28,447 nt of DNA from a virus. How positions within the stretch are numbered: the stretch's first letter is position 1; each line of letters begins with the position of its first letter. The DNA lies in IMG/VR virus record IMGVR_UViG_3300029266_002429, positions 1 to 28,447 of that record, one strand, 5' to 3'. Positions 1,050 through 22,200 of the stretch are shown here, in pieces. Below the pieces are notes generated by a model. That model was not told the DNA's origin, did no database searches, and worked only from the letters and a program-made list of their open reading frames with translations. The position numbers and the translations under genes were made by a program.

Positions 1050-1628
1050 TTATTTACTTTTAATACTTTGCAAATACTCAATAGTTTTAGCTAAACCTTC
1101 TAGTACTTTTTCAGCATTAGGCCTTCCATCCCATTTTTCAACATCACCTTGCTCTGTTATAAATGAATTATTTGATATAGATAATTCAGCTTCTATAAAT
1201 AATTTAAATTCTTCTATAACACCATCAATGTCAGCATTATTAATTTTTTTAACATACGCTTCATATAATCCGGATGTTTTTAAATGGTGTTCAAATTCAA
1301 CAACACAGTTAAAGCATTTTTTATGAATGTTAAAATAAGGTTTGTCTAAATCAGTATGAAGTTTTGCTCTACAATTAGGACAAAATAAGGGCATTAAATG
1401 GGCTTTTTTTGCTTTATCTAACTTTGTTATATTTTGTTTAATACCATCCTTAATAGTCCACTTACGACCATCAATTTCCCAAATATCTCCTTCTTTATAG
1501 TGTATTTCTTTTTTAGCGTAACCTACACTCTGACCTGTTTTTTCTCCATGTTTACCTTGAACAAGATTACGCATACGCTTTACATCTTTTTCAGTAAACT
1601 GTTTATTTAACCCCTGTACTTTACCCAT
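1050..1628 (-). CDS. Zinc-ribbon phage protein of unknown function (192 aa)
   Basis: The N-terminus is basic (residues 11-45, rich in K and R) and is followed by a short beta segment with EGDIWEIDGRKWTIKDG (47-62). A C4 zinc ribbon comes next, with C83-x2-C86 and C105-x2-C108. The C-terminal third is helical and acidic. The EGDxWxxDGxxWTIKDGIKQ block resembles a conserved hypothetical family I associate with T4-like environmental phages; no biochemical function is known to me. The zinc ribbon and basic N-terminus suggest nucleic-acid or protein binding, which is inference. It sits 4 nt after the 68-aa gene, so the two are probably cotranscribed. The start at 1628 is the first ATG in frame after that gene's stop. 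Confidence 0.8.
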   Translation of the reverse strand: MGKVQGLNKQFTEKDVKRMRNLVQGKHGEKTGQSVGYAKKEIHYKEGDIWEIDGRKWTIKDGIKQNITKLDKAKKAHLMPLFCPNCRAKLHTDLDKPYFNIHKKCFNCVVEFEHHLKTSGLYEAYVKKINNADIDGVIEEFKLFIEAELSISNNSFITEQGDVEKWDGRPNAEKVLEGLAKTIEYLQSIKSK

Positions 1629-1632
1629 AAAA

Positions 1633-1839
1633 CTATATTTTATTTAATTCTGTTATTATTGTTTGGATTTCTTCTGATGTTAAATCACCATCTAATTTCC
1701 ATGTAGCTATTTGATTGATTAATTCATTAACTAATATTTTAGGTTGTGGGGTAAATTTTGGTGGAATTTTAACATTTTCACTTCTTACCCTTGGGGAACC
1801 TCCTTTATAACCTCCATTTATTGAATTTAATTTACTCAT
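1633..1839 (-). CDS. Small hypothetical protein (68 aa)
   Basis: The first half is low-complexity, basic and rich in Gly, Ser and Pro (MSKLNSINGGYKGGSPRVRSE is its beginning), so probably disordered. The second half (residues ~35-68) is predicted helical and resembles a short helix-turn-helix-like pair, ending DLTSEEIQTIITELNKI. I recognise no family. The ATG overlaps the stop of the upstream four-module gene by 4 nt (ATGA), which supports translation by coupling. Being so tightly sandwiched between two clear genes makes it a probable real gene despite its size. Confidence 0.65.
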   Translation of the reverse strand: MSKLNSINGGYKGGSPRVRSENVKIPPKFTPQPKILVNELINQIATWKLDGDLTSEEIQTIITELNKI

Positions 1840-3419
1840 AATCCTAATTTTTTTAGTTGTGATATTGTATCAGCAGCTGAAGTATGTAATATACCAATTC
1901 CTCCTTGTGATACCCACTGATCTATATTTGATTTTCTATCATCAATTAATATGTGATTAGGAGCAGCATAATTTTGTTTTTTAGCTGCTTGAGCTAATGT
2001 TAATTTTGTACCAGGCATATTATTTTTAACCCATAATCTTTTACCTAATCTAGATGTTGATGATCTTGATGGTGATGATAATAATTCTGTATCATAGTTT
2101 TTAATATAATCCCAATATTGTTTTCCATCTTCCATCCAAGGCATCCCAACCCAAAATCCTACCTTACCTGTTCCATCAATCAATTTCCAAAATTCTTCCT
2201 TACCATATGTCTTTTCATATTCTCTTGGTGGTATTCCTTTAGAATATTTTAAAAATGATTCATCAAAATCAGTTAATACACCATCCATATCTGAGAATAT
2301 TTTATATTTAGGTTCATCAACTATTTCTTTAACTAATTTATCTAAACCAAAATAATCTTTATCTTCATTTATTGTATCTGTCCAATTTCTAAATGTCATT
2401 GTACCTTTTAGGTTAGCTTCTGCTTCAATGTCGTTTAAGTTATCGTCTTCAGTAGTATTGGTTGTTGTAATATCACCTAACCTACCTTCTAAATTTTGCA
2501 TGTGATGTATCATTTCATGCGCGTAGCTACGCGTTATATCCTTAGGGTGTCTGCCTTCCGTATATAGTACTATAGTTTGAGAGGTTGGGTCGTAATACGC
2601 AGTTTTGCCTAAAAATTGACTAGCATTTTCGCTATCACCATCTGCAAATTCTAACTTAGGAAGCGGTTCAATATTCATACCTTTATCTAACATATGTTGA
2701 GTAAAAGCTGCTAGATTATCTACTAAATTTATTTTTTTAGTATAGGTAGCATTTTCATTTACGTGATCAAAATTTTGTTTTTCCAAATATTCAGTATTAT
2801 CATGATTACACTTATGACAGATAAACAAATCAGCACCACCATCTTTTATCTCCCAACTCCAACCACAGTTATCACAATGGATTTTACTACCTACTATTTC
2901 TTCATTAACTGCTTTTCTAACAATATTCCAAATTTCTGATTTTTCTTTTACTTCTAATGGTATAAATTTTATAAATTCTTCTTCATTACCTAATGCTTTT
3001 CTTGCATTAGTACCACTCATACTTGCATCAGCTGTTCCTATAGTCTTTACTATAAGATTTGGATATTTTTCTTCTAGTTTACTTCTATCTGATATATCTC
3101 TTGTGTCGTCATCTCTACCTTCTCTATAACCTAAAATAAAATAAACTATATCTTGAGGATTCTCTTTAGCTAAATTTAAAACATCTTTTATAGGTGCTAC
3201 TGATGGTTGTATGTCAACTTTATCTGCTAAATAATTTTCATATATTTCCCAAACTAATATAGCTTCAGTTTGATCAATACCATCACGCTCTTTACCCCCA
3301 ACATATATTATAAATTCATCTATTTCAGGAAATTTACTAAGAGCTCTTTTAACTATTTCGAAATGACCTGCTGTTGGTGGTTTAAAACCACCCCCATATG
3401 CTGCTAATACTCTACCCAT
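1836..3419 (-). CDS. Four-module protein: nucleotidyltransferase - zinc ribbon - HExxH zincin-like - HAD phosphatase (527 aa)
   Basis: Residues 1-~170 look like a HIGH-superfamily nucleotidyltransferase (NMNAT/cytidylyltransferase type): GFKPPTAGH at 11-19 is the (T/H)xGH motif and SGTNAR at 135-140 matches the distal (I)SxTxxR motif. Residues 182-204 form a C4 zinc ribbon (C182, C185, C201, C204). Residues ~230-345 carry HEMIHH at 301-306 with acidic residues at E332/E334, as in zincin metallopeptidases. Residues ~372-527 are a HAD domain: DMDGV with D377 and D379, a possible motif II near S448, and the acidic motif IV IDD at 492-494, resembling 5'-nucleotidase-like HADs. Substrates cannot be read from sequence. 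The ATG overlaps the upstream kinase stop by 8 nt, so the kinase, adenylyl- or cytidylyl-transfer and phosphatase activities are probably made together, perhaps for nucleotide/cofactor or nucleic-acid end processing (inference). Zincin activity is the least certain part. Confidence 0.85.
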   Translation of the reverse strand: MGRVLAAYGGGFKPPTAGHFEIVKRALSKFPEIDEFIIYVGGKERDGIDQTEAILVWEIYENYLADKVDIQPSVAPIKDVLNLAKENPQDIVYFILGYREGRDDDTRDISDRSKLEEKYPNLIVKTIGTADASMSGTNARKALGNEEEFIKFIPLEVKEKSEIWNIVRKAVNEEIVGSKIHCDNCGWSWEIKDGGADLFICHKCNHDNTEYLEKQNFDHVNENATYTKKINLVDNLAAFTQHMLDKGMNIEPLPKLEFADGDSENASQFLGKTAYYDPTSQTIVLYTEGRHPKDITRSYAHEMIHHMQNLEGRLGDITTTNTTEDDNLNDIEAEANLKGTMTFRNWTDTINEDKDYFGLDKLVKEIVDEPKYKIFSDMDGVLTDFDESFLKYSKGIPPREYEKTYGKEEFWKLIDGTGKVGFWVGMPWMEDGKQYWDYIKNYDTELLSSPSRSSTSRLGKRLWVKNNMPGTKLTLAQAAKKQNYAAPNHILIDDRKSNIDQWVSQGGIGILHTSAADTISQLKKLGL

Positions 3420-4212
3420 TTAAAAATTGTTTTAATCTCGTTTGTGCTTCTTCTTTTGACATGGTATATTCAATTACATCATATAAAAATTCATCACTTA
3501 ACATATCTTGAATTTGAGCATTTAACTCTGCTTTTTGCTCATCAGATTTTTTCTGTTGAGCTGGTGATTTTGGTTTAGTATTTTCTGGTTTAAATGGGTT
3601 AAGATATTTTTGAACTATTTTTTCTATATCCCCAATTTTTTGACCTTCTAAAGTATTAGCAACCGCTACAAAATTATCACCAAATGCATTAGCATATTCT
3701 GGTAAATTATCAGTTACACTTTTCCATGTACGTAACACAATTGCAGGAGCTAAACTCCTATCTTCACCACCTGATTTTTCAAATCTATTTTGATTTTGTC
3801 TTAATGAACGTTCTAAATCAGTATAAACATAAAGCATAAACACTTCATACCCTGCTTCTTTTAATTCATCTTTTAATTTAAGAGTATTTCTTAATGAAGC
3901 AGCTGTACCATCTAGTATAAATGATTCTTTTTTAAAAATTACATCAGCTACATCACCTTTAAATTCTTTATTAGCAGCAGCCATTGATTTTGCTTGTTGG
4001 CTTCTTTCTTCAGGTGTAGCATTTTTTAAATCTAATGAAACATTAGCTTGCTTTAACATATTAACAAAAATATTGTCAATGTTTAATACTTTCAAACCAC
4101 CTAAATCTAAACCTTTTAATATAAAACCTTTACCAGCACCAGGTGCACCTGCTAATATAATAGCTTTAGGTGTTTCAGTTGCTTCTTTCAATAATGTTAC
4201 TAATGATATCAT
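3412..4212 (-). CDS. P-loop kinase-like NTPase (266 aa)
   Basis: A Walker A motif GAPGAGKG lies at 22-29 after a hydrophobic strand (KAIILA). An Asp at 46 (LNIDNIF) sits where small-molecule and zeta-type kinases place a catalytic or substrate-binding acid. FILDG at 98-102 is Walker B-like, and an Arg-containing lid-like segment (RSLRQNQNRF, 135-144) follows. The fold resembles phage polynucleotide or zeta-type kinases, but the phosphate acceptor is unknown. A Lys/Pro/Gln-rich linker (~205-230) leads to a short helical tail. The N-terminus MISLVTLLKEA resembles the T4 capsid-targeting peptide pattern (MKTYQEFIAEA), a possible sign of packaging in the head, noted as a finding. The start at 4212 follows a gap with a promoter-like motif; the next gene overlaps by 8 nt. 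Confidence 0.8.
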   Translation of the reverse strand: MISLVTLLKEATETPKAIILAGAPGAGKGFILKGLDLGGLKVLNIDNIFVNMLKQANVSLDLKNATPEERSQQAKSMAAANKEFKGDVADVIFKKESFILDGTAASLRNTLKLKDELKEAGYEVFMLYVYTDLERSLRQNQNRFEKSGGEDRSLAPAIVLRTWKSVTDNLPEYANAFGDNFVAVANTLEGQKIGDIEKIVQKYLNPFKPENTKPKSPAQQKKSDEQKAELNAQIQDMLSDEFLYDVIEYTMSKEEAQTRLKQFLNG

Positions 4213-5985: not shown

Positions 5986-6435
5986 CTACTGGAAATCTTT
6001 AGTAAAGAATTTTCCGAGGATGTTATCGTTAAAGTATTCTTTTGGGTTTTCTAAAACTTCATGTAAAAATTGATACTTAGTTTCAAAATATGTTAATTCC
6101 TTTTTACTGGCACATAAATAAATAATTGTACGTTTAAAATTATTTTCGGGTTCTTGCTTAACTAATTCTACTAAATGTTTATTTGAACTCCAATATGTTT
6201 TCCAATCTGATTCTTTAGATACTACTTTGAATTTAGGTGGTCTACCTTTTTGACCTTCAAATATTTTTAATTCTTTTTTACCTAGTTTTTGTTTACGAGT
6301 AAACACAAGAAATTTTTTACCTATATAAGATTTACCTGAGGGAATGTGGTCTATTCTATATACAAACCCCATGATTTCTTTTTTTAATTGTTGAACGTCT
6401 GTAATTTCTTCATTCTGGTATATCCAATTATTCAT
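5986..6435 (-). CDS. GIY-YIG family nuclease-like protein (149 aa)
   Basis: The GIY-YIG core is present: GFVYRI at 23-28 stands for GIY, SYIGKK at 36-41 contains YIG, R47 can be the conserved arginine, and E118 (YFETKYQF) is in the place of the catalytic glutamate, with asparagines near 136-138. The SDWKTYWSSNKHL segment (76-88) is typical of small phage GIY-YIG proteins. No obvious separate DNA-binding domain is present, so it may be a free-standing homing endonuclease-like protein or a phage-adapted nuclease. It sits at the border between the tail genes and the replication genes, with its start overlapping the upstream stop by one base (TAATG). Confidence 0.8.
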   Translation of the reverse strand: MNNWIYQNEEITDVQQLKKEIMGFVYRIDHIPSGKSYIGKKFLVFTRKQKLGKKELKIFEGQKGRPPKFKVVSKESDWKTYWSSNKHLVELVKQEPENNFKRTIIYLCASKKELTYFETKYQFLHEVLENPKEYFNDNILGKFFTKDFQ

Positions 6436-9227: not shown

Positions 9228-12200
9228 TTATACTGCGTTTTGAGGTCCAATTTTTCCTGGATCTATTACTTGAGAGTCATCTCTAAATGCATTTTGTGCT
9301 TTCAATTGATTAATTAATGTTAATGTGTTTCTTTTCTGTTGGGGTGTAAAGTCATTTGGTATTAAATATCCACCACCTGATCCAGTTGTTTCACCTGTAC
9401 CAAAAGCATTAGGTTGAGATTGAAATACAATAACTCTATCATCAGCATTTACTCTTCTTCTAATTATAAAAGCTCCCATTTGACCTCCTACAATGTTTAA
9501 AGTTGATGGGTCAGGATAAACCTTTATAGCATTACGTAAACTACCATTTATATTAGACATTGCTTTGCTTGAAAAACATTGTTGATCATCACAATATGAA
9601 GATGAAAATTGACCAACATCTGTACCAGCTTCTCCAAATGATCCTGATAAACCTGTTACTGTAAATACTTGGGTATCAAAAAATACATCCTCATTACTCC
9701 TAAAGTTAATTTGATCATTTATTACACATTCAATTTCATCATTTACTTTTATTATAAATGGTAAAGCACCATCTACTTCTTTATAAGCTCCAACTCCGCT
9801 TGCAGAGAAATTTGTTCTCCAATAAAGTTCTTCATTATTTACTCCATTCGGTCTTTTAGATATTGAGCCAGATAATATTGTAGGAATACCTATTGCTACT
9901 AATGCATTTCCAGATGCAATTGTTCCTCCGGCTTCTGTATCAAATGCTGCTGGGTTTGATTCACTTACTGCAGTGTTTAAAGTGTTTATAATAGCTAAAC
10001 CAGGGCCTGATATATATTGAACATATGAAAAATTACCAGCTCCAGTTTGTGATGTAAACATAGGAGCTTGGCCAAAATCACCATTTCCTTTTAAAAATAA
10101 ACATCCACTCCCTGTTACTATATAACCTGCTTGTGCTCCCAACCCTGGTAATTTAGCAGATGATGATACTTTTTGGTAATTATTACCAACTCCATTTACC
10201 CAACTAGCTGATACAAATGACATGGTAGGGGTAAATGTTGGAAATGAAAATTGATTAGAAGGACCTGTTCTTCCAACAGTTGATGCTCCGATTGTACCAT
10301 ATTCTAAAGAACCTTGAAATATTTTTTTTACTCCCGTAGCTATATTAGCATAATTAACACCGTTAAATTTAATTGAGTCATAAGCTACCGATACTCCTCT
10401 ATCTAATTCAAATGTACTCCTAACTTCTGTTAAGTTATTTCCACTACCATCTACTTTAATTACTACTGGTGAATCTTTTCCATCTGTAATATCTCTTGAT
10501 AGTGATTTAGATGGTGATGCTATTAATGAATCTATTTCAAATGTATAAGTACCTTCTAAATTTAAATTATTATATGAAGATTTAAAATGGGCAAAGTAAA
10601 TAGGATTATGATCAATTACTGCTTGTTCTCCAAAACTAGTATCACCGGGCCATGATGATTGTGAAGTACTACTTCCACTTAAAGCATTTAAAAATACTAT
10701 ACTTGACGTTTTGGGTGTGTATTGATTGTAATCAGCACTTTCAATTAAAGTTCCATCATATCTTGGATTTATCCATGATTTTTGGACATAATTACTATCA
10801 GGAACTGATGCTTTTGGAGCTGTTCTGTTTATTATTAATGGGAGATTTGAAGGTATTTGTTCGCCTTGATCATATTCTACTACTTCAATGTATGTATTTT
10901 TTCTACTAGAAGTAGCATTATTAATTAAAGGATTAAATGGTGTATTGTAAAAATTACTTGATTCCGGTAAGCTTGGACTGAATATAAATGTTTGACTGTT
11001 TTGATCTGCTGATGCTGAAAATAAAGATTGGGAAACTGTTGCTGAGGATACTGTCCAGTGTGATCCACTTATTGTATGGGCTAAACCTACATTTCCATCT
11101 TTTAACTCACTATTAAAATCAGTAAATGTTGTATAATTCCAACCAGTCATTTGACCATTATTATTGAAAACACTACTTAATGGGTCAAGCACATTAATAG
11201 GTAAGCTAGGTGAACTTTTTTGAACAAATAAGCCACCGGGTCTATTTAATTGAGTATATCTAATACTCTTGGTTTGACTTATACCATTTAATGTTATAGG
11301 TCTTCCACTTTGACTTGCATTAAGTAAAAAATTAAAATTTGGATTATTTAATAGTGTCGTTTCATTATTAGTTACTATCCCAGTAATTGGATCCGACGTT
11401 TTTTCATTTAATATTAAATTTGGTATAACATATTGGCCATTATCATGAAAATAAGATGATGTAAATGAAGTTCCAATAGCATATAAACTACCAGTTCCAA
11501 TATTTTGATTTAGGGATGGTATTGTGCTTCTTGAAGCAGAGATTTTAGTTTGGAATCTACTTAAATTAAATTTTAAATCTATTCCTGGTGCTTGTGTTGA
11601 AGGGTAAGTTGAAGTTGCACTACAAACAAGATTACAAAAAGTTAAAGCATCTGCAATCTCTCCTACTACATCTGTGTTTGCTAATATAGCTTTCATTGCT
11701 ATTGTATTACCTTCTTGCATCCCTGCCTGGGTTAGAGGAGAATTAAAAGAACCATAGTAATAATAGGTAAAATACCCATCAGCTAAATAATTATAATTTT
11801 TTACATTTTCTGGTAGGATATTTTTGGATAGGTCAGAATTCTGTAGATTTGGGGAAGTATTTCTTACAGTATACCATCTTTCATTTGCTCCAGTTATACC
11901 TAAATATCCAGTATGGATAATGTTAGTTGGTAGAAAAAACTCAGTCTCATTGGAGTTTTGTTCACTAGGATCATCATTAAAGGGAGATGATGCATAACCT
12001 CCATTAGCACCTGCTACCATATTTGGAAGTGGTTCAAATTTATACCAAGGATTAATTAAATTAAATTGAGACATTTGCTGTCCTACTGCTTCTTGTGGGG
12101 CTCTATCAAAAGATTCTGCAGCTCCATATATTGGTCTACCACTCTGATCTGCTCCTTGAATACCTTGCCACTTGCTCTCAGGAGGTAAGTTTTGAAAGTT

Positions 12201-15200
12201 AGGCATTGGAATTAATTCATCTGATACTTGTTCATTGTAGGGTAGGATTGTTCCTGAAATATTTACTCCTATTTTTTCAACACTATTAGGAAGAATCATT
12301 CCCGTTATAACAAAGTTATCAACATTTGCACCAGTTCCACCTTGAGGATTTGCTACCCATTTATTTATAAAAAATGCACCTGTATTGAAGGTTGATCCAA
12401 AATAATTAGGGCTAAGGGGGTTTGTTAATGCATTAGTAGCAGTTTCAAAACCATAGTTGGAGGAGTCATCAACTGGAATAAACAGCATATGAACACTATA
12501 CTCTTCATCAGGATTTAAACTTGTGTTATTGTTAACTTTTGAAGTTGGGCCAAAATCTCCAGCATCCATTGTAACATTTAAGTGGTATGGTGTATCACTA
12601 GGTGTTGATGACGCGAAAGGATTATTTAATAGGGATTGAGTTACTACTACAAACTCACTACCACTATATTCTCCATTATAAAATTGTTTTTGATCATCAT
12701 CAAATGTTCTAACACTACCTGATATAGTTTCTTCATAATTAAACCAACCTTGTTGGGACATAGGTTGACGTAGAGTACTACTAATAGAACCTGAAAATGA
12801 TCCATTACTACTATGATCTCCTTCTGGTAGTTCACCGAATCTAAATAAGAAAGATACTCCAGTTTGGGCAGTTGCTCTAAATCCAAAAAATAATCTTTCT
12901 TCAGGATATATCTGTAAATATCCTCCATCGGTTGGACTGATTGAATTTATAGAATTTAATTCATCATTAGCACCAACACCCGTAAATGTGCAAAATTCTC
13001 CACTTCCATTATCAGAAATAAAACCTCTAACACTAGAAGAAATAAATACACGTATATCACCTATTGGCTCACTAAATTCAATACTAAATGCACTTCTAAT
13101 TTGTTTCGTAGATTCTAAATAAGTACTCCCAAAAGAAAATCGATTAACATTAAAAATATCATTATTTACTCCAATAAAAATATTACTGCCTGTCATAAAT
13201 CCTCCAGAGGATGTTGGACTTGATTCCCAAAATGGATTTGTTGTTGCTGGGTCTAAATTAATACCATCTGACTGACTATAATATAAAGATCCTGTTTCTT
13301 CAACTTTATTAAAGGATGCAGTTGGGGTTGTTTCAAATGCGGCACCACCTTCAATTTTATATATAGCCTTTCCAACATTTCCAACATCGGCATTAAACAC
13401 CAAATTTTGCATTGGTATTATATTATTAAAAGAATTTGGGGAATATGATGATGATGCTAATCCATTTTCTCCATATAACCCTGTTCCGTATAACCCTGTT
13501 CCATATAACGCACCTGTATCTGTAGATGCTGTTACTGGTGAGCCTGTTACATAGTAAGCTACCGTAGTATATGAATTTAATGTTGTGGGTGGGCGACGAT
13601 TACGCTCCAACATATGTTGTTTGATTATAACACCTGTAGTTACACTAGTACGAGCTGGTACATATGATTTAATAGCTTTAAATAGTGAATTATCAAAATA
13701 TTTAATTAATCTTAAATAATCCCAAACGTTACCTTCTGTGTATTTTTTAAAGTAATCTTCAGCTACATTTCTTAATTTTGGATAATAATTTAATGATGAT
13801 GTTGCAAATTGAGGATCTGCAATAGCATCTGCTACAACTCCAAAACCATAGGTTGCTATAATATCATCATTTACTTCATCTTGAGGTGAAAAACCAACTT
13901 CTAAATTAGTAGTATCTTCAGTATAACTTTGACTTATTAAATAGTCTTGATCTATACTTATTTCTCTTGATAATACTTTACCATAAGCATTTCCATCTGC
14001 TATTTGGATTTTATTTGATACTCTATTTCTAATTCCAATTGCGGGTTGATCTAATTGATAAACCTCATAATTAGGTTTACTATAAGTTCTTGTATTTAAG
14101 TTATCATATACAATCCAATCATAACTTGAAGTAGTTGTAAAATCAAAAGGATTTATAAATGATTGAGTAAAAACAGATGGTGCTGATCCTGTAATTGCTG
14201 GATGTGAGGATGATATTTTAGTTACATATAAATTACTTCCAGATGAAGTATATAAATTTTCTAATTCATTTCCTAATGGTGCCCTAAAGTTTACTATATC
14301 AAAAGATGATTGAGAACCTGAGATTGAATTTCCTTCAACTGATTCAGGATTCATTACAAAATCATTAAATACTTCTTGCCCTATAGCATTTGAATAGTAT
14401 CTAAATTCCTGTAGGGATCCTGAAAATATTTTTCCGGGAAATGCAAGTGTTCTTTCTCCAACTTGTGAGCCAGATACAAAACCTCCTACATAAACACCAT
14501 TAACATCCCCAACAAAATCACTCCCAAAACTATTCCATGAATTATTTAATGATGATGAAACAGCTCCTACTACTGTAAGACTTGCTGATCCTGTCCATCC
14601 TATCGTATTACCATCATCCCCATTATATTGGTTATTTCCAGCAAATAGAGTATATGTTACATTTCCAGTATTATTACTAGATGTAACGTGTGAATCTCTT
14701 TGTAATAAAATTGTCCACCATCCTTTATTAAAAAATGGTAAATATATTTCTGGGGATTGTTTTGTTCCACCTTCAGCTGTAGATCCTGATAGGAAAAATG
14801 ATAATTTTCCATAATCATAATAATCACTATTACTTGAACCACTATAGGATCCAGTTGGTGAATCATTATAAACTAAACTTACACCCCAATCAAATTGTGT
14901 ATCTTCAATACCATTTGTTTTCTTAACCATTAAAGATTGGCTTCTAAAATTACCACCAAAACTTGAAGATGGAAAGCCGGTTGTTTTAAACCTCATACCT
15001 ACCCCATCAGGTACTATAAATTGGTTATCACCATCTTCACTTATATTAGCTAAGTAATTTCTTTCTAAAGGCATCCATGGTACTCTAACTGATGAACTGG
15101 CACGTGATTGATTAGCTACTGGTGTATAAGCATAACTAAATCTATTATACCATAAATCATAGTCATTACTATTATCTTTATTTTTACCACCAAATTCATT

Positions 15201-17372
15201 AATTCTAAGAATTGTATTTGGTATACCCCATATATTAATTAATTGTCTTAAACCTGATACTGTACCTTTCTTTTTAGTAAGATAAGCCATATTGTGATAA
15301 AGACGTTTGTAAATTTCTTTACTTACTTTGTCAATAGCATACGGAAAACCAGCATCAACAATTTCTTCTACATAATCAGCAAATGAATAACCTGGATCCC
15401 AATAATTTATTATTTGGCCATTATTAACAGCTACATATTTGGTAATTAATTCACTTCCTGTAGGTGGAACATATACTCCATTATCAGCACCTGCTAATCC
15501 TATAAAATTATCTTGATTATTATAATTGTTTCCAAAAGTTTCAAACCCTAAACCTTTAATAGCATCCGCTGCTAAACCTAAAGGTAATCCCGAATCTGGG
15601 TCATTTGTAGTATTATATCTTTCACTTAATGCTTTTGTATAAAGCCAAACTTCATCAAAAGATTGACCTACCATATTACAAAAGGTTACATAATCTACAT
15701 TATCGTTATTATCTACAATATATTGCGGTATAGTGTAGTATAACCAATTTTGATTATTTTCATCATATAATGACGCAGAATTAATAATACCGCCATAATA
15801 TACGTTTGAATCTATATCACTACCTAACCAATTTAATACTGTAGTACTATTTGTTGGTAATAATTCAAATGGATATACTGACCCTGTTTTTGGGTAAGCA
15901 TATAAAGATGAAGTATTGTAATATAAATATGTTTCATACCCATCAAAATTTTCAATGAGGTTGGTTATGTTAGTTTGCAAACTAGCTAAACTCTGTGATA
16001 TGGCACTTACATTAGGGTTACTAGCTACTGTAGTTTGAATTGAATCTATATCAGCTTCATAAGCTTGAATTTGAGATACCTTTTCGTAAAAATTATTTAC
16101 TCTTTCTTTTGCAGATGAAAAATTAACAAATTCATTAAAAGTTTTCCAAGAGTAATCAGGTGTTATTGCTACACCTGTTGTATTTAAAATATTTTTTACA
16201 TTATTTAAAGATGCCGTTGAAGCAGTATTTAATAAATCTTCTTTAGATTGTAGTACTGTTGAGTTATTAACTAAATCTTGTAATGATATATTAATATTAG
16301 GACCTTTAATGTAATTAGCATTTAAAAATGTCCATACACCACCTGCAGCTATACATTCCGATTGTGTTTTATATTGGGGTCCTAAAGAACAAACACCACC
16401 GCTTAAATTTTGTAATTCTTCAGCAAAGTTTATTTTATAAGCTACACTTTCACCTACTTTAGTAGCAACATACAATTCATCTTTTACTCCAAATTGAGGA
16501 GGAAGTGCATCATATAGTTTAATTAATATTTTAGGATTATCAAATGTTGAATCATCTGATTTTATTATATTAATACCTATTTGATATTGGTTGTTAAATA
16601 GGCTAATGTAAAATTCATCAAAGTTAGGTGAAGATGATAATTTTTGTTTAAGATTTTGATATCCATCCTCAATTTCTTTTGAACCAATAAAATTTGACTG
16701 TATAGAAATTTCTGTTCTATCCCCTGATATTTCAGATATATAAAATGTGTTTTCTATAGTTGATCCTAACTCATAATTAATAAAATTGTAAGTAGCAAAT
16801 ACCTGACCTGAATCAAAACCTGAATTAAATACATCCATTGTTGGATCTAATGACAAGGCATTTGTAATAGATGAGGTTGGTGGATTTGGAATATCTACTC
16901 CAATACCTTCTTCATTAGTGTAGGATCCTGTTAGTAATGTGTTATCACTATCTTTTCCTATAGACCATTCTGTAAAATTATAATTTACACTAGATAAAGT
17001 TTTATTAGCATCATATATAAAAAATTCAACTAAATCATTTCCAGGTTGAAATGAACCTGTAATATTTTCTTGAGGTATAATTTCTTGATCTTGTAATTCA
17101 AACCCATCATCAGATAATAGATTTGGGTTAACAGGAACACAAGAAGCACTAATTTGAATTATAGGGCTTATAGGTGCTAGTTTTGGAATTTTAACAGGGT
17201 TAGGTAATTTTATAACCCCTTTTTTAGAAACTTTTTTAGTTTCAACCTCAGGAATTTTTATGAATCCACCTTTAATCTCTTTTTCTCTCCTATCAATATC
17301 TTTTTCTTCGATATCTCTAAATTTTCTCTTTTCATCCTCTTCGTCGTATTGAGTATAATCTATTGGTGCCAT
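9228..17372 (-). CDS. Giant tail/baseplate protein with gpI/gp7-like motif and LamG-like domain (2714 aa)
   Basis: I place the start at the ATG at 17372 (MAPIDYTQYDEEDEKRKF), one base after the upstream stop; an in-frame ATG at 17444 would overlap the upstream gene by 71 nt and adds an unlikely His/Leu-rich peptide. Order: a charged, probably disordered N-terminus (1-~60); a CxxG...TQSECIAAGGVW motif near 327-346; helices at ~380-460; a segment near 660-735 with KKGTVSGLRQLINIWGIP, resembling the HRxKGT...G signature of P2 gpI/Tail_P2_I, the family counterpart of T4 gp7; a LamG/concanavalin-like region at ~800-1015 (WWTILLQRD, VYVGGF, FPGKIFSGSLQEFRYY); a conserved helix at ~1211-1261 (SYVPARTSVTTGVIIKQH); GLYGTGLYG repeats near 1290; then >1400 residues of beta-rich Ser/Thr/Asn-rich sequence, probably fibre-like. 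Its place after gp6 fits a wedge/periphery component. Confidence 0.85.
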   Translation of the reverse strand: MAPIDYTQYDEEDEKRKFRDIEEKDIDRREKEIKGGFIKIPEVETKKVSKKGVIKLPNPVKIPKLAPISPIIQISASCVPVNPNLLSDDGFELQDQEIIPQENITGSFQPGNDLVEFFIYDANKTLSSVNYNFTEWSIGKDSDNTLLTGSYTNEEGIGVDIPNPPTSSITNALSLDPTMDVFNSGFDSGQVFATYNFINYELGSTIENTFYISEISGDRTEISIQSNFIGSKEIEDGYQNLKQKLSSSPNFDEFYISLFNNQYQIGINIIKSDDSTFDNPKILIKLYDALPPQFGVKDELYVATKVGESVAYKINFAEELQNLSGGVCSLGPQYKTQSECIAAGGVWTFLNANYIKGPNINISLQDLVNNSTVLQSKEDLLNTASTASLNNVKNILNTTGVAITPDYSWKTFNEFVNFSSAKERVNNFYEKVSQIQAYEADIDSIQTTVASNPNVSAISQSLASLQTNITNLIENFDGYETYLYYNTSSLYAYPKTGSVYPFELLPTNSTTVLNWLGSDIDSNVYYGGIINSASLYDENNQNWLYYTIPQYIVDNNDNVDYVTFCNMVGQSFDEVWLYTKALSERYNTTNDPDSGLPLGLAADAIKGLGFETFGNNYNNQDNFIGLAGADNGVYVPPTGSELITKYVAVNNGQIINYWDPGYSFADYVEEIVDAGFPYAIDKVSKEIYKRLYHNMAYLTKKKGTVSGLRQLINIWGIPNTILRINEFGGKNKDNSNDYDLWYNRFSYAYTPVANQSRASSSVRVPWMPLERNYLANISEDGDNQFIVPDGVGMRFKTTGFPSSSFGGNFRSQSLMVKKTNGIEDTQFDWGVSLVYNDSPTGSYSGSSNSDYYDYGKLSFFLSGSTAEGGTKQSPEIYLPFFNKGWWTILLQRDSHVTSSNNTGNVTYTLFAGNNQYNGDDGNTIGWTGSASLTVVGAVSSSLNNSWNSFGSDFVGDVNGVYVGGFVSGSQVGERTLAFPGKIFSGSLQEFRYYSNAIGQEVFNDFVMNPESVEGNSISGSQSSFDIVNFRAPLGNELENLYTSSGSNLYVTKISSSHPAITGSAPSVFTQSFINPFDFTTTSSYDWIVYDNLNTRTYSKPNYEVYQLDQPAIGIRNRVSNKIQIADGNAYGKVLSREISIDQDYLISQSYTEDTTNLEVGFSPQDEVNDDIIATYGFGVVADAIADPQFATSSLNYYPKLRNVAEDYFKKYTEGNVWDYLRLIKYFDNSLFKAIKSYVPARTSVTTGVIIKQHMLERNRRPPTTLNSYTTVAYYVTGSPVTASTDTGALYGTGLYGTGLYGENGLASSSYSPNSFNNIIPMQNLVFNADVGNVGKAIYKIEGGAAFETTPTASFNKVEETGSLYYSQSDGINLDPATTNPFWESSPTSSGGFMTGSNIFIGVNNDIFNVNRFSFGSTYLESTKQIRSAFSIEFSEPIGDIRVFISSSVRGFISDNGSGEFCTFTGVGANDELNSINSISPTDGGYLQIYPEERLFFGFRATAQTGVSFLFRFGELPEGDHSSNGSFSGSISSTLRQPMSQQGWFNYEETISGSVRTFDDDQKQFYNGEYSGSEFVVVTQSLLNNPFASSTPSDTPYHLNVTMDAGDFGPTSKVNNNTSLNPDEEYSVHMLFIPVDDSSNYGFETATNALTNPLSPNYFGSTFNTGAFFINKWVANPQGGTGANVDNFVITGMILPNSVEKIGVNISGTILPYNEQVSDELIPMPNFQNLPPESKWQGIQGADQSGRPIYGAAESFDRAPQEAVGQQMSQFNLINPWYKFEPLPNMVAGANGGYASSPFNDDPSEQNSNETEFFLPTNIIHTGYLGITGANERWYTVRNTSPNLQNSDLSKNILPENVKNYNYLADGYFTYYYYGSFNSPLTQAGMQEGNTIAMKAILANTDVVGEIADALTFCNLVCSATSTYPSTQAPGIDLKFNLSRFQTKISASRSTIPSLNQNIGTGSLYAIGTSFTSSYFHDNGQYVIPNLILNEKTSDPITGIVTNNETTLLNNPNFNFLLNASQSGRPITLNGISQTKSIRYTQLNRPGGLFVQKSSPSLPINVLDPLSSVFNNNGQMTGWNYTTFTDFNSELKDGNVGLAHTISGSHWTVSSATVSQSLFSASADQNSQTFIFSPSLPESSNFYNTPFNPLINNATSSRKNTYIEVVEYDQGEQIPSNLPLIINRTAPKASVPDSNYVQKSWINPRYDGTLIESADYNQYTPKTSSIVFLNALSGSSTSQSSWPGDTSFGEQAVIDHNPIYFAHFKSSYNNLNLEGTYTFEIDSLIASPSKSLSRDITDGKDSPVVIKVDGSGNNLTEVRSTFELDRGVSVAYDSIKFNGVNYANIATGVKKIFQGSLEYGTIGASTVGRTGPSNQFSFPTFTPTMSFVSASWVNGVGNNYQKVSSSAKLPGLGAQAGYIVTGSGCLFLKGNGDFGQAPMFTSQTGAGNFSYVQYISGPGLAIINTLNTAVSESNPAAFDTEAGGTIASGNALVAIGIPTILSGSISKRPNGVNNEELYWRTNFSASGVGAYKEVDGALPFIIKVNDEIECVINDQINFRSNEDVFFDTQVFTVTGLSGSFGEAGTDVGQFSSSYCDDQQCFSSKAMSNINGSLRNAIKVYPDPSTLNIVGGQMGAFIIRRRVNADDRVIVFQSQPNAFGTGETTGSGGGYLIPNDFTPQQKRNTLTLINQLKAQNAFRDDSQVIDPGKIGPQNAV
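13471..13510 (-). repeat. Short in-gene tandem repeat (15-bp unit, ~2.7 copies)
   Basis: On the plus strand the 15-base unit CCATATAACCCTGTT is followed by CCGTATAACCCTGTT and a partial CCATATAACG. It encodes the YGTGLYGTGLYG segment of the giant protein. In-frame 5-residue steps suggest slippage-derived length variation in a flexible linker. Confidence 0.7.
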
Positions 17373-17373
17373 A

Positions 17374-17823
17374 TTATGGTGTTGTAGGTGTATTATTAGC
17401 ATTTGATACAGCAGATGCCGGAGAGGAATTACTAGCAAGTGCATTTGACAAACTACCAGCCAACCCTGTGGCTTGAGCTGTTATCACATCTGCTAATTGT
17501 TGTCTAACTTCTAAATTTTCTTCTCTCAATTCTGCAATTTCTTCTAGTAATGATTCTATTTCTTCTTGCTGTGGTGTATAATCAGCATACTCACCACTAG
17601 TTTGGGCTAAATATTCATGTGAATTAATATCTCCAAACTTAGGTATTATATAAAATAACTTTTGATATAAGTTCCAAAAATCATCTAACGTAGCCAAGTT
17701 TAGATCAAAGAAAGATGGGTCAACTACATTTACTAACTGTGTAAAATTAGTATCTACAGTTTCATTAAATTTATCTTTATCAAAAACTGTTCTTTGTATT
17801 TTTATGTTTTTACTAGTGCTCAT
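17374..17823 (-). CDS. Small coiled-coil tail protein (149 aa)
   Basis: The N-terminal ~70 residues are mixed and aromatic-rich (FDKDKFNETVDTNFTQLVNVV, then DDFWNLYQKLFYIIPKFG). Residues ~83-115 form a strongly charged heptad-type coiled coil (EEIESLLEEIAELREENLEVR). The tail is low-complexity Ala/Ser/Asn/Thr/Pro, probably disordered. I recognise no family. The ATG overlaps the stop of the DNRLRE-like gene by 4 nt (ATGA) and its own stop lies 1 nt before the giant gene, so it is likely coupled to both. A role as an oligomerisation or chaperone-like partner for the giant baseplate protein is inferred from position alone. Confidence 0.75.
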   Translation of the reverse strand: MSTSKNIKIQRTVFDKDKFNETVDTNFTQLVNVVDPSFFDLNLATLDDFWNLYQKLFYIIPKFGDINSHEYLAQTSGEYADYTPQQEEIESLLEEIAELREENLEVRQQLADVITAQATGLAGSLSNALASNSSPASAVSNANNTPTTP

Positions 17824-21443: not shown

Positions 21444-21850
21444 TATTGTAGTAGTATGTTTATTTCATCAGTTATACCAAAATTTACAATATCATATGTT
21501 AGTGTAAAATTAATAGTATTGTTATCTGGTTGGTTATTAAATTTTATTTCTGCAACTACAACATTTGGAAAATAGTTGTTAATATCATTTTGAATTCTTT
21601 CTTTCAATTCATCTGTTGTACGATCTAAAATATTTTCAAAAACTAAATTTCTTAAATCTGCTCCAAAATTAGGATTAAATACTCTTTCTCCTCTATTAGT
21701 TAATAAATAATTAATTAAATTTGACTTAGTTTGAGCTCTTGTTGTAAACGTTGGATTAAATACTGCGGGGCCATTAAAAGGAAGTGAAAACCCTACTGCT
21801 CTTCGAGCAATTGAATCTATTGGGTACTTACTTTGAATTATTCTAGCCAT
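21443..21850 (-). CDS. Baseplate wedge protein, T4 gp25-like (135 aa)
   Basis: The conserved gp25 core is clear: SNLINYLLTNRGERVFNPNFG (starting near residue 43) followed by ADLRNLVFENI. The GERxFxPxFG motif is the hallmark of gp25/W/TssE. Length matches T4 gp25 (132 aa). gp25 joins the wedge to the sheath and helps start sheath polymerisation. It is followed by gp6 with a one-base overlap, and it starts by a one-base overlap with the 116-aa gene, which suggests coupled translation. Confidence 0.95.
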   Translation of the reverse strand: MARIIQSKYPIDSIARRAVGFSLPFNGPAVFNPTFTTRAQTKSNLINYLLTNRGERVFNPNFGADLRNLVFENILDRTTDELKERIQNDINNYFPNVVVAEIKFNNQPDNNTINFTLTYDIVNFGITDEINILLQ

Positions 21851-22200
21851 TATTTTTTCATTAAGCCTGCTATCATTGACATATCAACTTCTCCTGTTGG
21901 TAGTGTTCCATTACTTGTATCAAAACCTGGTTTAGGGGCAAAAGATTGAGGGACATTTGCGGATGTAAATTGAGCTCCAGTTTCTCCTAAAATATTAGCA
22001 TATGATGCTCTTTTTTCTTCGGCGCTCATTTCTGGTTGTTGGGACTGTTGATGCTCTACAACCGGTGCTGGTTGAGCATAAGTTGGTTGAGTTAGAACTT
22101 TAGGAGTCTTGACAGCTTCTAATAGAATATCCTTCAATTCTTCTTGAATTGCTTCTCTTACTGCTTCTTTAATTATTACCTTTAATTGTGATGACTTCAT
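21850..22200 (-). CDS. Small helix-plus-linker protein of the baseplate cluster (116 aa)
   Basis: Residues 1-~30 are an amphipathic helix (MKSSQLKVIIKEAVREAIQEE). The middle is Pro/Gln/Ala-rich and probably disordered (TQPTYAQPAPVVEHQQSQQPE), and the C-terminus ends in a short helix (DMSMIAGLMKK). I recognise no named family; short phage proteins starting with LxxIIxEAVxEAI-type helices are common near structural genes. It precedes gp25 with a one-base overlap and follows a 31-nt gap with a promoter-like motif. It may be an assembly partner of the wedge; this is inferred from location. Confidence 0.75.
   Translation of the reverse strand: MKSSQLKVIIKEAVREAIQEELKDILLEAVKTPKVLTQPTYAQPAPVVEHQQSQQPEMSAEEKRASYANILGETGAQFTSANVPQSFAPKPGFDTSNGTLPTGEVDMSMIAGLMKK

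Follow-up and report, generated by a model that had tools for sequence, protein, structure and literature searches.

A four-module protein from an uncultured phage as a possible shuffling polyprotein with prohead-protease-like sites at its module borders

Introduction

What kind of phage protein carries a nucleotidyltransferase motif, four clustered cysteines, an HExxH motif and a phosphatase motif in one reading frame? The question is raised by P0001, a 527-residue modular protein encoded at 1836..3419 on the minus strand of a 28,447-nucleotide stretch of viral DNA (IMG/VR record IMGVR_UViG_3300029266_002429), the whole of which is referred to here as the window. A sequence-only reading of this DNA had proposed four modules of separate families, joined in an order known from no described system, and had suggested either a self-processing polyprotein or an enzyme that both installs and removes a nucleotide modification. 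Most proteins of uncultured marine phages carry no annotation, and Flavobacterium phage immuto, which is cultured and encodes a relative of P0001, offers a directly testable case. Prohead proteases are familiar as trimmers of capsid and internal proteins.

The protease gp21 of phage T4 cleaves C-terminally to L/I-x-E, and propeptides of 10-19 residues direct T4 proteins into the head (PMC9026906). The analysis described here addresses the folds of the P0001 modules, their arrangement in relatives, and the peptide motifs at their borders, which resemble gp21 sites and suggest that the protein may be cut in the phage head.

Materials and methods

A pattern search of IMG/VR matched 311 stretches of viral contigs, 309 of which encode relatives of P0001. 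Eighty fetched stretches, together with the window and immuto, were dereplicated to 58 loci, which stay partly dependent on each other even after this step. The family alignment was made with whole proteins, and AlphaFold2 was used to model P0001 (40 related sequences). The PDB search with the whole model was filled by the nucleotidyltransferase (NT) domain and listed no zincin, and the zincin region (residues 218-353) was therefore folded alone (50 sequences). Border motifs were counted in windows of 20 residues. In the motifs given below, a slash marks the putative or known point of cleavage.

Results and discussion

Four modules in one reading frame

The P0001 gene starts with ATG and has no internal stop. 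TAGH (residues 16-19), SGTNAR (135-140), the cysteines at 182, 185, 201 and 204, HEMIHH (301-306), DMDGV (377-381) and IDD (492-494) were all located where the sequence-only reading had placed them, and the invariant columns of a 40-sequence alignment (G10, P14, P15, G18, H19, R140, H301, E302, H305, H306, E332 and E334) show that these motifs are more than chance matches. A Pfam profile search of the protein returned only CTP_transf_like, below the cut-off, and by itself would have left most of the sequence unrecognized. The AlphaFold2 model (mean pLDDT 84.8, pTM 0.40) consists of separate, confidently predicted domains with no fixed mutual arrangement, and confidence is low at residues 171-176, 215-228 and 362-368.

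The first module (residues 1-171; 2907..3419, minus strand) is modelled as a HIGH-type adenylyltransferase of the PPAT/NadD type, with a Rossmann-type fold, an (H/T)xGH motif and an ISSTxxR-like motif. It matches E. coli PPAT with a Z of 17.6 over 152 residues and NadD with a Foldseek E of 1e-6, and the columns of GGGFKPPTAGH and SGTNAR are invariant or nearly so. The second module (about residues 174-218) is a predicted four-cysteine zinc ribbon, CDNC..CHKC, at residues 182-204 (2808..2876, minus strand). A regular-expression search of the loci and three genomes found no such module outside the P0001 family, a weak negative in which genes crossing the borders of 20-kb pieces were missed.

The third module (residues 223-349; 2373..2753, minus strand) contains the zinc-binding motif HEMIHH (2502..2519, minus strand). 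Modelled alone, the region reached a pLDDT of 87.6 and matched Wss1 (Z 8.7), IrrE (Z 8.0, Foldseek E 5e-3), ArdC (Z 7.3) and selecase; these Z values are modest, and the leading matches in both lists are nearly all metallopeptidases. The HExxH motif, the histidine that follows it and a downstream ExE are invariant in 50 of 50 zincin sequences. With HExxH, a downstream glutamate in the next helix and a zincin fold, the module is, by model and alignment, a gluzincin metallopeptidase. The fourth module (residues 370-527; 1839..2312, minus strand) is assigned to the HAD phosphatases of the 5'(3')-deoxyribonucleotidase type, a predicted activity, by its DxDGV motif, its acidic motif IV (IDD), a match of PHROG 2643 (5'-3' deoxyribonucleotidase) to residues 369-527 (E 2e-23) and its fold, which resembles the deoxyribonucleotidase-like structure 3bwv (Z 15.1).

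All four predicted folds are present, three by modelled structure and the ribbon by its cysteines, and the proposal of four modules in one frame was thereby borne out. The region at residues 230-345, about which a structure prediction had been called for, is a zincin whose best PDB matches are all zinc metallopeptidases, and both the NT and HAD folds were recovered with intact catalytic motifs. A fusion of separate genes by sequencing error could be dismissed, since NT and HAD share a frame in 31 of the 58 dereplicated relatives, which come from other metagenomes.

Exchange of modules among relatives

The 58 loci display more than 20 architectures. The NT module comes first, except for an extra N-terminal domain in immuto, and the HAD comes last; the zincin is found in nearly every relative, always between the two. 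The zinc ribbon is portable, and either precedes the zincin, follows it or is missing, and other inserted modules measure up to several hundred residues. Besides the loci with a fused HAD, 22 of the 58 carry it as a separate neighbouring gene. The module order of P0001 is one snapshot and not a conserved system. This picture of permuted modules, added insertions and a HAD that is often a gene of its own lends no support to the idea of one enzyme for both adding and stripping a nucleotide modification.

Individual loci locate the exchange points. L004 shares 89-92% DNA identity with the window but has an additional module of 565 bp placed precisely behind codon 173, and in L003 the ribbon and the zincin have changed places, the breakpoints lying at the P0001 borders. 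In the polyprotein of L039 (3071-6829), an Fe/Mn superoxide dismutase (E 5e-29) occupies about residues 488-684 and a plastocyanin-type cupredoxin (E 7e-14) about residues 826-910. Their Pfam borders, which are independent of the motif, are flanked by ITE/N...LGE/N and VNE/N...VKE/N, and [LIV]xE triplets also occur inside the superoxide dismutase module. Extra HEIEH zincins were seen by eye in L033, L070 and immuto.

In immuto, NT and zincin are joined in the 907-residue gp182, and the HAD is encoded by the next gene, gp183, with a tag-like start; the protein differs from P0001 in its extra N-terminal domain, a second HEIEH zincin and the unfused HAD. By eye, the N-terminal part of gp182 (L002 4122-6845) resembles a Pol-beta-type nucleotidyltransferase (GSxxAGSKADFGDLDI), and the second HEIEH zincin-like part, at the C-terminus, follows VMAE/GRYD. 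A check for spread into bacterial genomes gave only seven relatives of the zincin in the genome collection, all on MAG contigs, including Flavobacteriales and Winogradskyella.

A peptide motif at the module borders

All four borders of P0001 carry an [LIV]xE motif, with V or I at P3. Putative cut-site 1, VNE/E (residues 171-173; 2901..2909), lies in the low-confidence stretch 171-176 and at the insertion point of L004; site 2, VNE/N (residues 220-222; 2754..2762), lies in the stretch 215-228; and site 3, INE/D (residues 350-352; 2364..2372), precedes a connector, DKDYFGLDKLVKEIVDE (residues 353-369; 2313..2363), predicted to form an amphipathic, tag-like helix and ending in VDE/P (all on the minus strand). 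This last, putative site 4, is the weakest of the four because of the proline at P1'. The low-confidence linkers of the model thus coincide with putative cut-sites, and the exchange points in L004 and L003 fall exactly at [LIV]xE.

Such a triplet is short and common by chance in Glu-rich linkers. Among the dereplicated relatives it occurs in 93% of the border windows of the ribbon, 92% of those of the zincin and 91% of those of the HAD, against 53%, 29% and 52%, respectively, when the same windows are shuffled; the baseline is 12% for windows inside modules and 25.5% genome-wide. Just upstream of the ribbon, [LIVM]xE is present in 17 of 17 dereplicated copies, and the P1 glutamate stands at -8 from the first cysteine in 15 of 18 copies, whatever precedes it. 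At the border sites P1 is always E and P3 is L, I, V or M, which together were the search criterion, and the informative features are the frequency of the sites and the freedom of P2 and P1', which vary, as do the codons. This variation points to selection on the peptide rather than on the DNA; a DNA-level recombination motif cannot alone explain the borders, as the codons of P2 and P3 vary.

The same figures bear on the possibility that P0001 acts in the infected cell as an uncut multi-enzyme protein, fused for co-expression, with Glu-rich linkers that are merely site-like. Many relatives keep the modules fused in one unbroken frame, P0001 lacks an N-terminal tag, and a literature search found no virion proteomics or cleavage reports for the family, all of which suit such a protein. 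However, site frequencies well above those of shuffled linkers, fixed P1 and P3 next to free P2 and P1', exchange points that fall exactly at the sites, and a HAD that alternates between a fused module and a tagged standalone protein make this explanation unlikely.

The upstream kinase, N-terminal leaders and the candidate protease

Cleavage at the borders by a prohead protease, the reading that we prefer, is also suggested by the gene upstream of P0001. This gene encodes a zeta-toxin/AAA_33-type P-loop kinase of 266 residues (3412..4212, minus strand; Pfam Zeta_toxin E 4.5e-15) and shares 8 bp with the beginning of the P0001 gene. A fusion of kinase and NT by -1 frameshifting in this overlap was rejected on the reading frames, the NT frame not being the -1 frame of the kinase. 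The kinase begins with a putative capsid-targeting-like propeptide, MISLVTLLKE/A (4183..4212, minus strand), and the pattern of this ten-residue leader is that of the starts of T4 gp24, IPII, IPIII and Alt. It fits 49 of 54 distinct kinase N-termini exactly, and one to three genes per genome fit it, compared with 0.3-0.5 expected. In three kinases its place is taken by a leader of the MDNFDYKKYIAEGKLLKE type, found at the start of unrelated genes as well. This second class, M(E/D/N)NFDLKKFLxENKLLxE, was seen on several unrelated proteins per genome (G001, G006, immuto; L097-L123) and can stand in for MISL..LLKE on the kinase.

Standalone HADs start with a tag-like leader ending in xE in 23 of 25 cases by a loose criterion, and fit the strict pattern in 3 of 23, and distant NT proteins begin with MNxLxKFLxxxILNE. 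On P0001 and its nearest clade no N-terminal propeptide is present; these proteins start directly at the NT domain. Homologues of gp21 and gp23 are encoded by seven of seven longer relative genomes, the window being a 28-kb fragment without a gp21 of its own. The gp23 homologues of the relatives have V-M-E/E or V-S-E/A where the T4 cut falls, an assignment by position only, and this makes V at P3 plausible.

Two further leader-bearing proteins were observed. Just upstream of the polyprotein gene of L065 (1748-2206) lies a tagged protein of 153 residues, MIKLKDILTE/IN..., with weak PARP/Tox-ART similarity that recalls T4 Alt; ADP-ribosyltransferase-like modules were noted by eye, with weak Pfam support, in L045 and upstream of L065. 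In the window, a 116-residue protein (21850-22200, minus strand) adjoins a gp25-like gene and starts with MKSSQLKVIIKE/AVREAIQEELKDILLE/AV. This start recurs in its counterparts in three relative genomes, and the protein may be a further component of the head or core.

Of the sequence-only proposal of a self-processing polyprotein, the polyprotein part is favoured by the cut-site-like borders, whereas the likelier cutter is a gp21-type prohead protease and not the protein's own zincin. A gluzincin that itself cleaves the linkers, without any prohead protease, would accord with its near-universal presence in relatives, its fixed place between NT and HAD and its invariant HExxH and glutamate, and zincin self-processing has been proposed by Iyer et al. 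for polyvalent proteins, P1 DdrB and N4-type proteins (PMC5512222). Nevertheless, the border motif is the L/I-x-E of gp21, gp21 is encoded by the relatives, and the same type of site ends the tags of the kinase and the standalone HAD, neither of which contains a zincin; self-processing is accordingly rather improbable. We know of no zincin that cleaves itself after Glu at an [LIV]xE-type motif.

Least probable is a cytosolic metabolic cassette, in which the kinase and an NMN-adenylyltransferase-like domain would act as a split NadR and the HAD would trim nucleotides: NadR does unite this NT fold with a P-loop kinase (PMC9503650), the immuto copy is annotated as NMN adenylyltransferase and the NT fold comes closest to NadD and PPAT, but the kinase matches Zeta_toxin/AAA_33, the match to both PPAT and NadD does not single out one substrate, and zincin, ribbon, superoxide dismutase, cupredoxin, tags and shuffling are left unexplained. 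Such a role and packaging are compatible and not mutually exclusive.

A possible head-packaged polyprotein

The explanation that we favour, and hold to be somewhat better than an even bet, is that P0001 is a shuffling polyvalent polyprotein of T4-like phages of Bacteroidota, packaged in the head, cut by a gp21-type protease and injected as separate modules. P0001 would be one version of such a protein in the T4-like (gp21- and gp23-bearing) phages of marine Bacteroidota and would be drawn into the prohead core alongside the tagged kinase of the adjacent upstream gene. A gp21-type prohead protease would cut it at [L/I/V]-x-E between the modules, and the freed adenylyltransferase, ribbon, gluzincin and deoxyribonucleotidase would pass into the host along with the DNA, to act there at an early stage; the cut-sites would double as shuffling borders. 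In this account the packaging, the cutting, the injection, the substrates and the phylum of the host are inferred. Proteins of the host or of the phage may be what the zincin trims, and nucleotides are the probable substrates of NT and HAD.

The chief weakness of the packaging argument is the missing tag on P0001, which would have to rely on its internal connector helix or on a partner to reach the head. For the same reason P0001 is not classed as a T4-type internal protein and would only work like one. Whether the family as a whole amounts to a plug-in effector cartridge is finely balanced, with even chances: interchangeable enzymes (adenylyltransferase, deoxyribonucleotidase, metallopeptidases, superoxide dismutase, cupredoxin and more) would be packed, freed in the head by the capsid-maturation protease and exchanged between phages at its sites.

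If the favoured explanation is true, the prohead protease would in addition make several injected enzymes out of a single gene product, and the free swapping of these enzymes among phages would be explained by a site of only three residues. Moreover, [LIV]xE borders and tag-like N-termini would provide a sequence rule for injected proteins in uncultured marine phages.

Relation to known systems

In comparison with the internal head proteins of T4 (Alt, IPI-III, gp24 and gp22), the likeness lies in the ten-residue propeptide of the kinase and in the L/I-x-E sites. The packaged T4 proteins lose an N-terminal propeptide, whereas here the sites separate folded enzyme modules of a single chain, and P0001, unlike the T4 proteins, has no N-terminal tag. 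Head proteins of phiKZ and SPN3US, also large myoviruses, likewise have multiple prohead-protease sites ending in Glu; the parts of those papers drawn on here describe an A/S-x-E motif and propeptide removal and report no shuffled enzyme modules (PMC10052503, PMC5694885).

A literature search for shuffled head polyproteins yielded nothing closer than the polyvalent proteins of Iyer et al. (2017), which share with P0001 a single chain built of many unrelated enzymatic domains, a zincin hub and variable architecture, include zeta-like kinases among their domains and are predicted to travel with the DNA (PMC5512222). The P0001 family has at least two unrelated domains, variable architectures and a zincin hub, the last being a common but not universal feature of polyvalent proteins. 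In the portions of that account used here, a HIGH-type adenylyltransferase in first place and a deoxyribonucleotidase-type HAD in last place are not named, nor did a term search of the paper bring them up, and processing by the zincin is stressed, whereas in the P0001 family the borders bear gp21-type sites at which the exchange points fall (PMC5512222). Three things appear to be new here: a border motif of the gp21 type, the match between this motif and the points of module exchange, and this set of modules.

Genomic neighbourhood

P0001 lies directly beside primase and exonuclease genes, on the same strand as baseplate wedge and late-sigma-like genes. A SegE-type GIY-YIG endonuclease is encoded at 5986-6435 (minus strand; Pfam E 5e-30), and the PHROG to which it belongs, 447, bears the family name 'NAD synthetase', apparently in error. 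Downstream of the baseplate genes, a protein of 2738 residues is encoded at 9228-17444 (minus strand). Finally, two genes downstream of P0001, a 192-residue protein (1050-1628, minus strand) shows a ribbon-like CPNC...CFNC pattern, and a protein of similar appearance is encoded after the HAD in immuto (L002 7427-8002).
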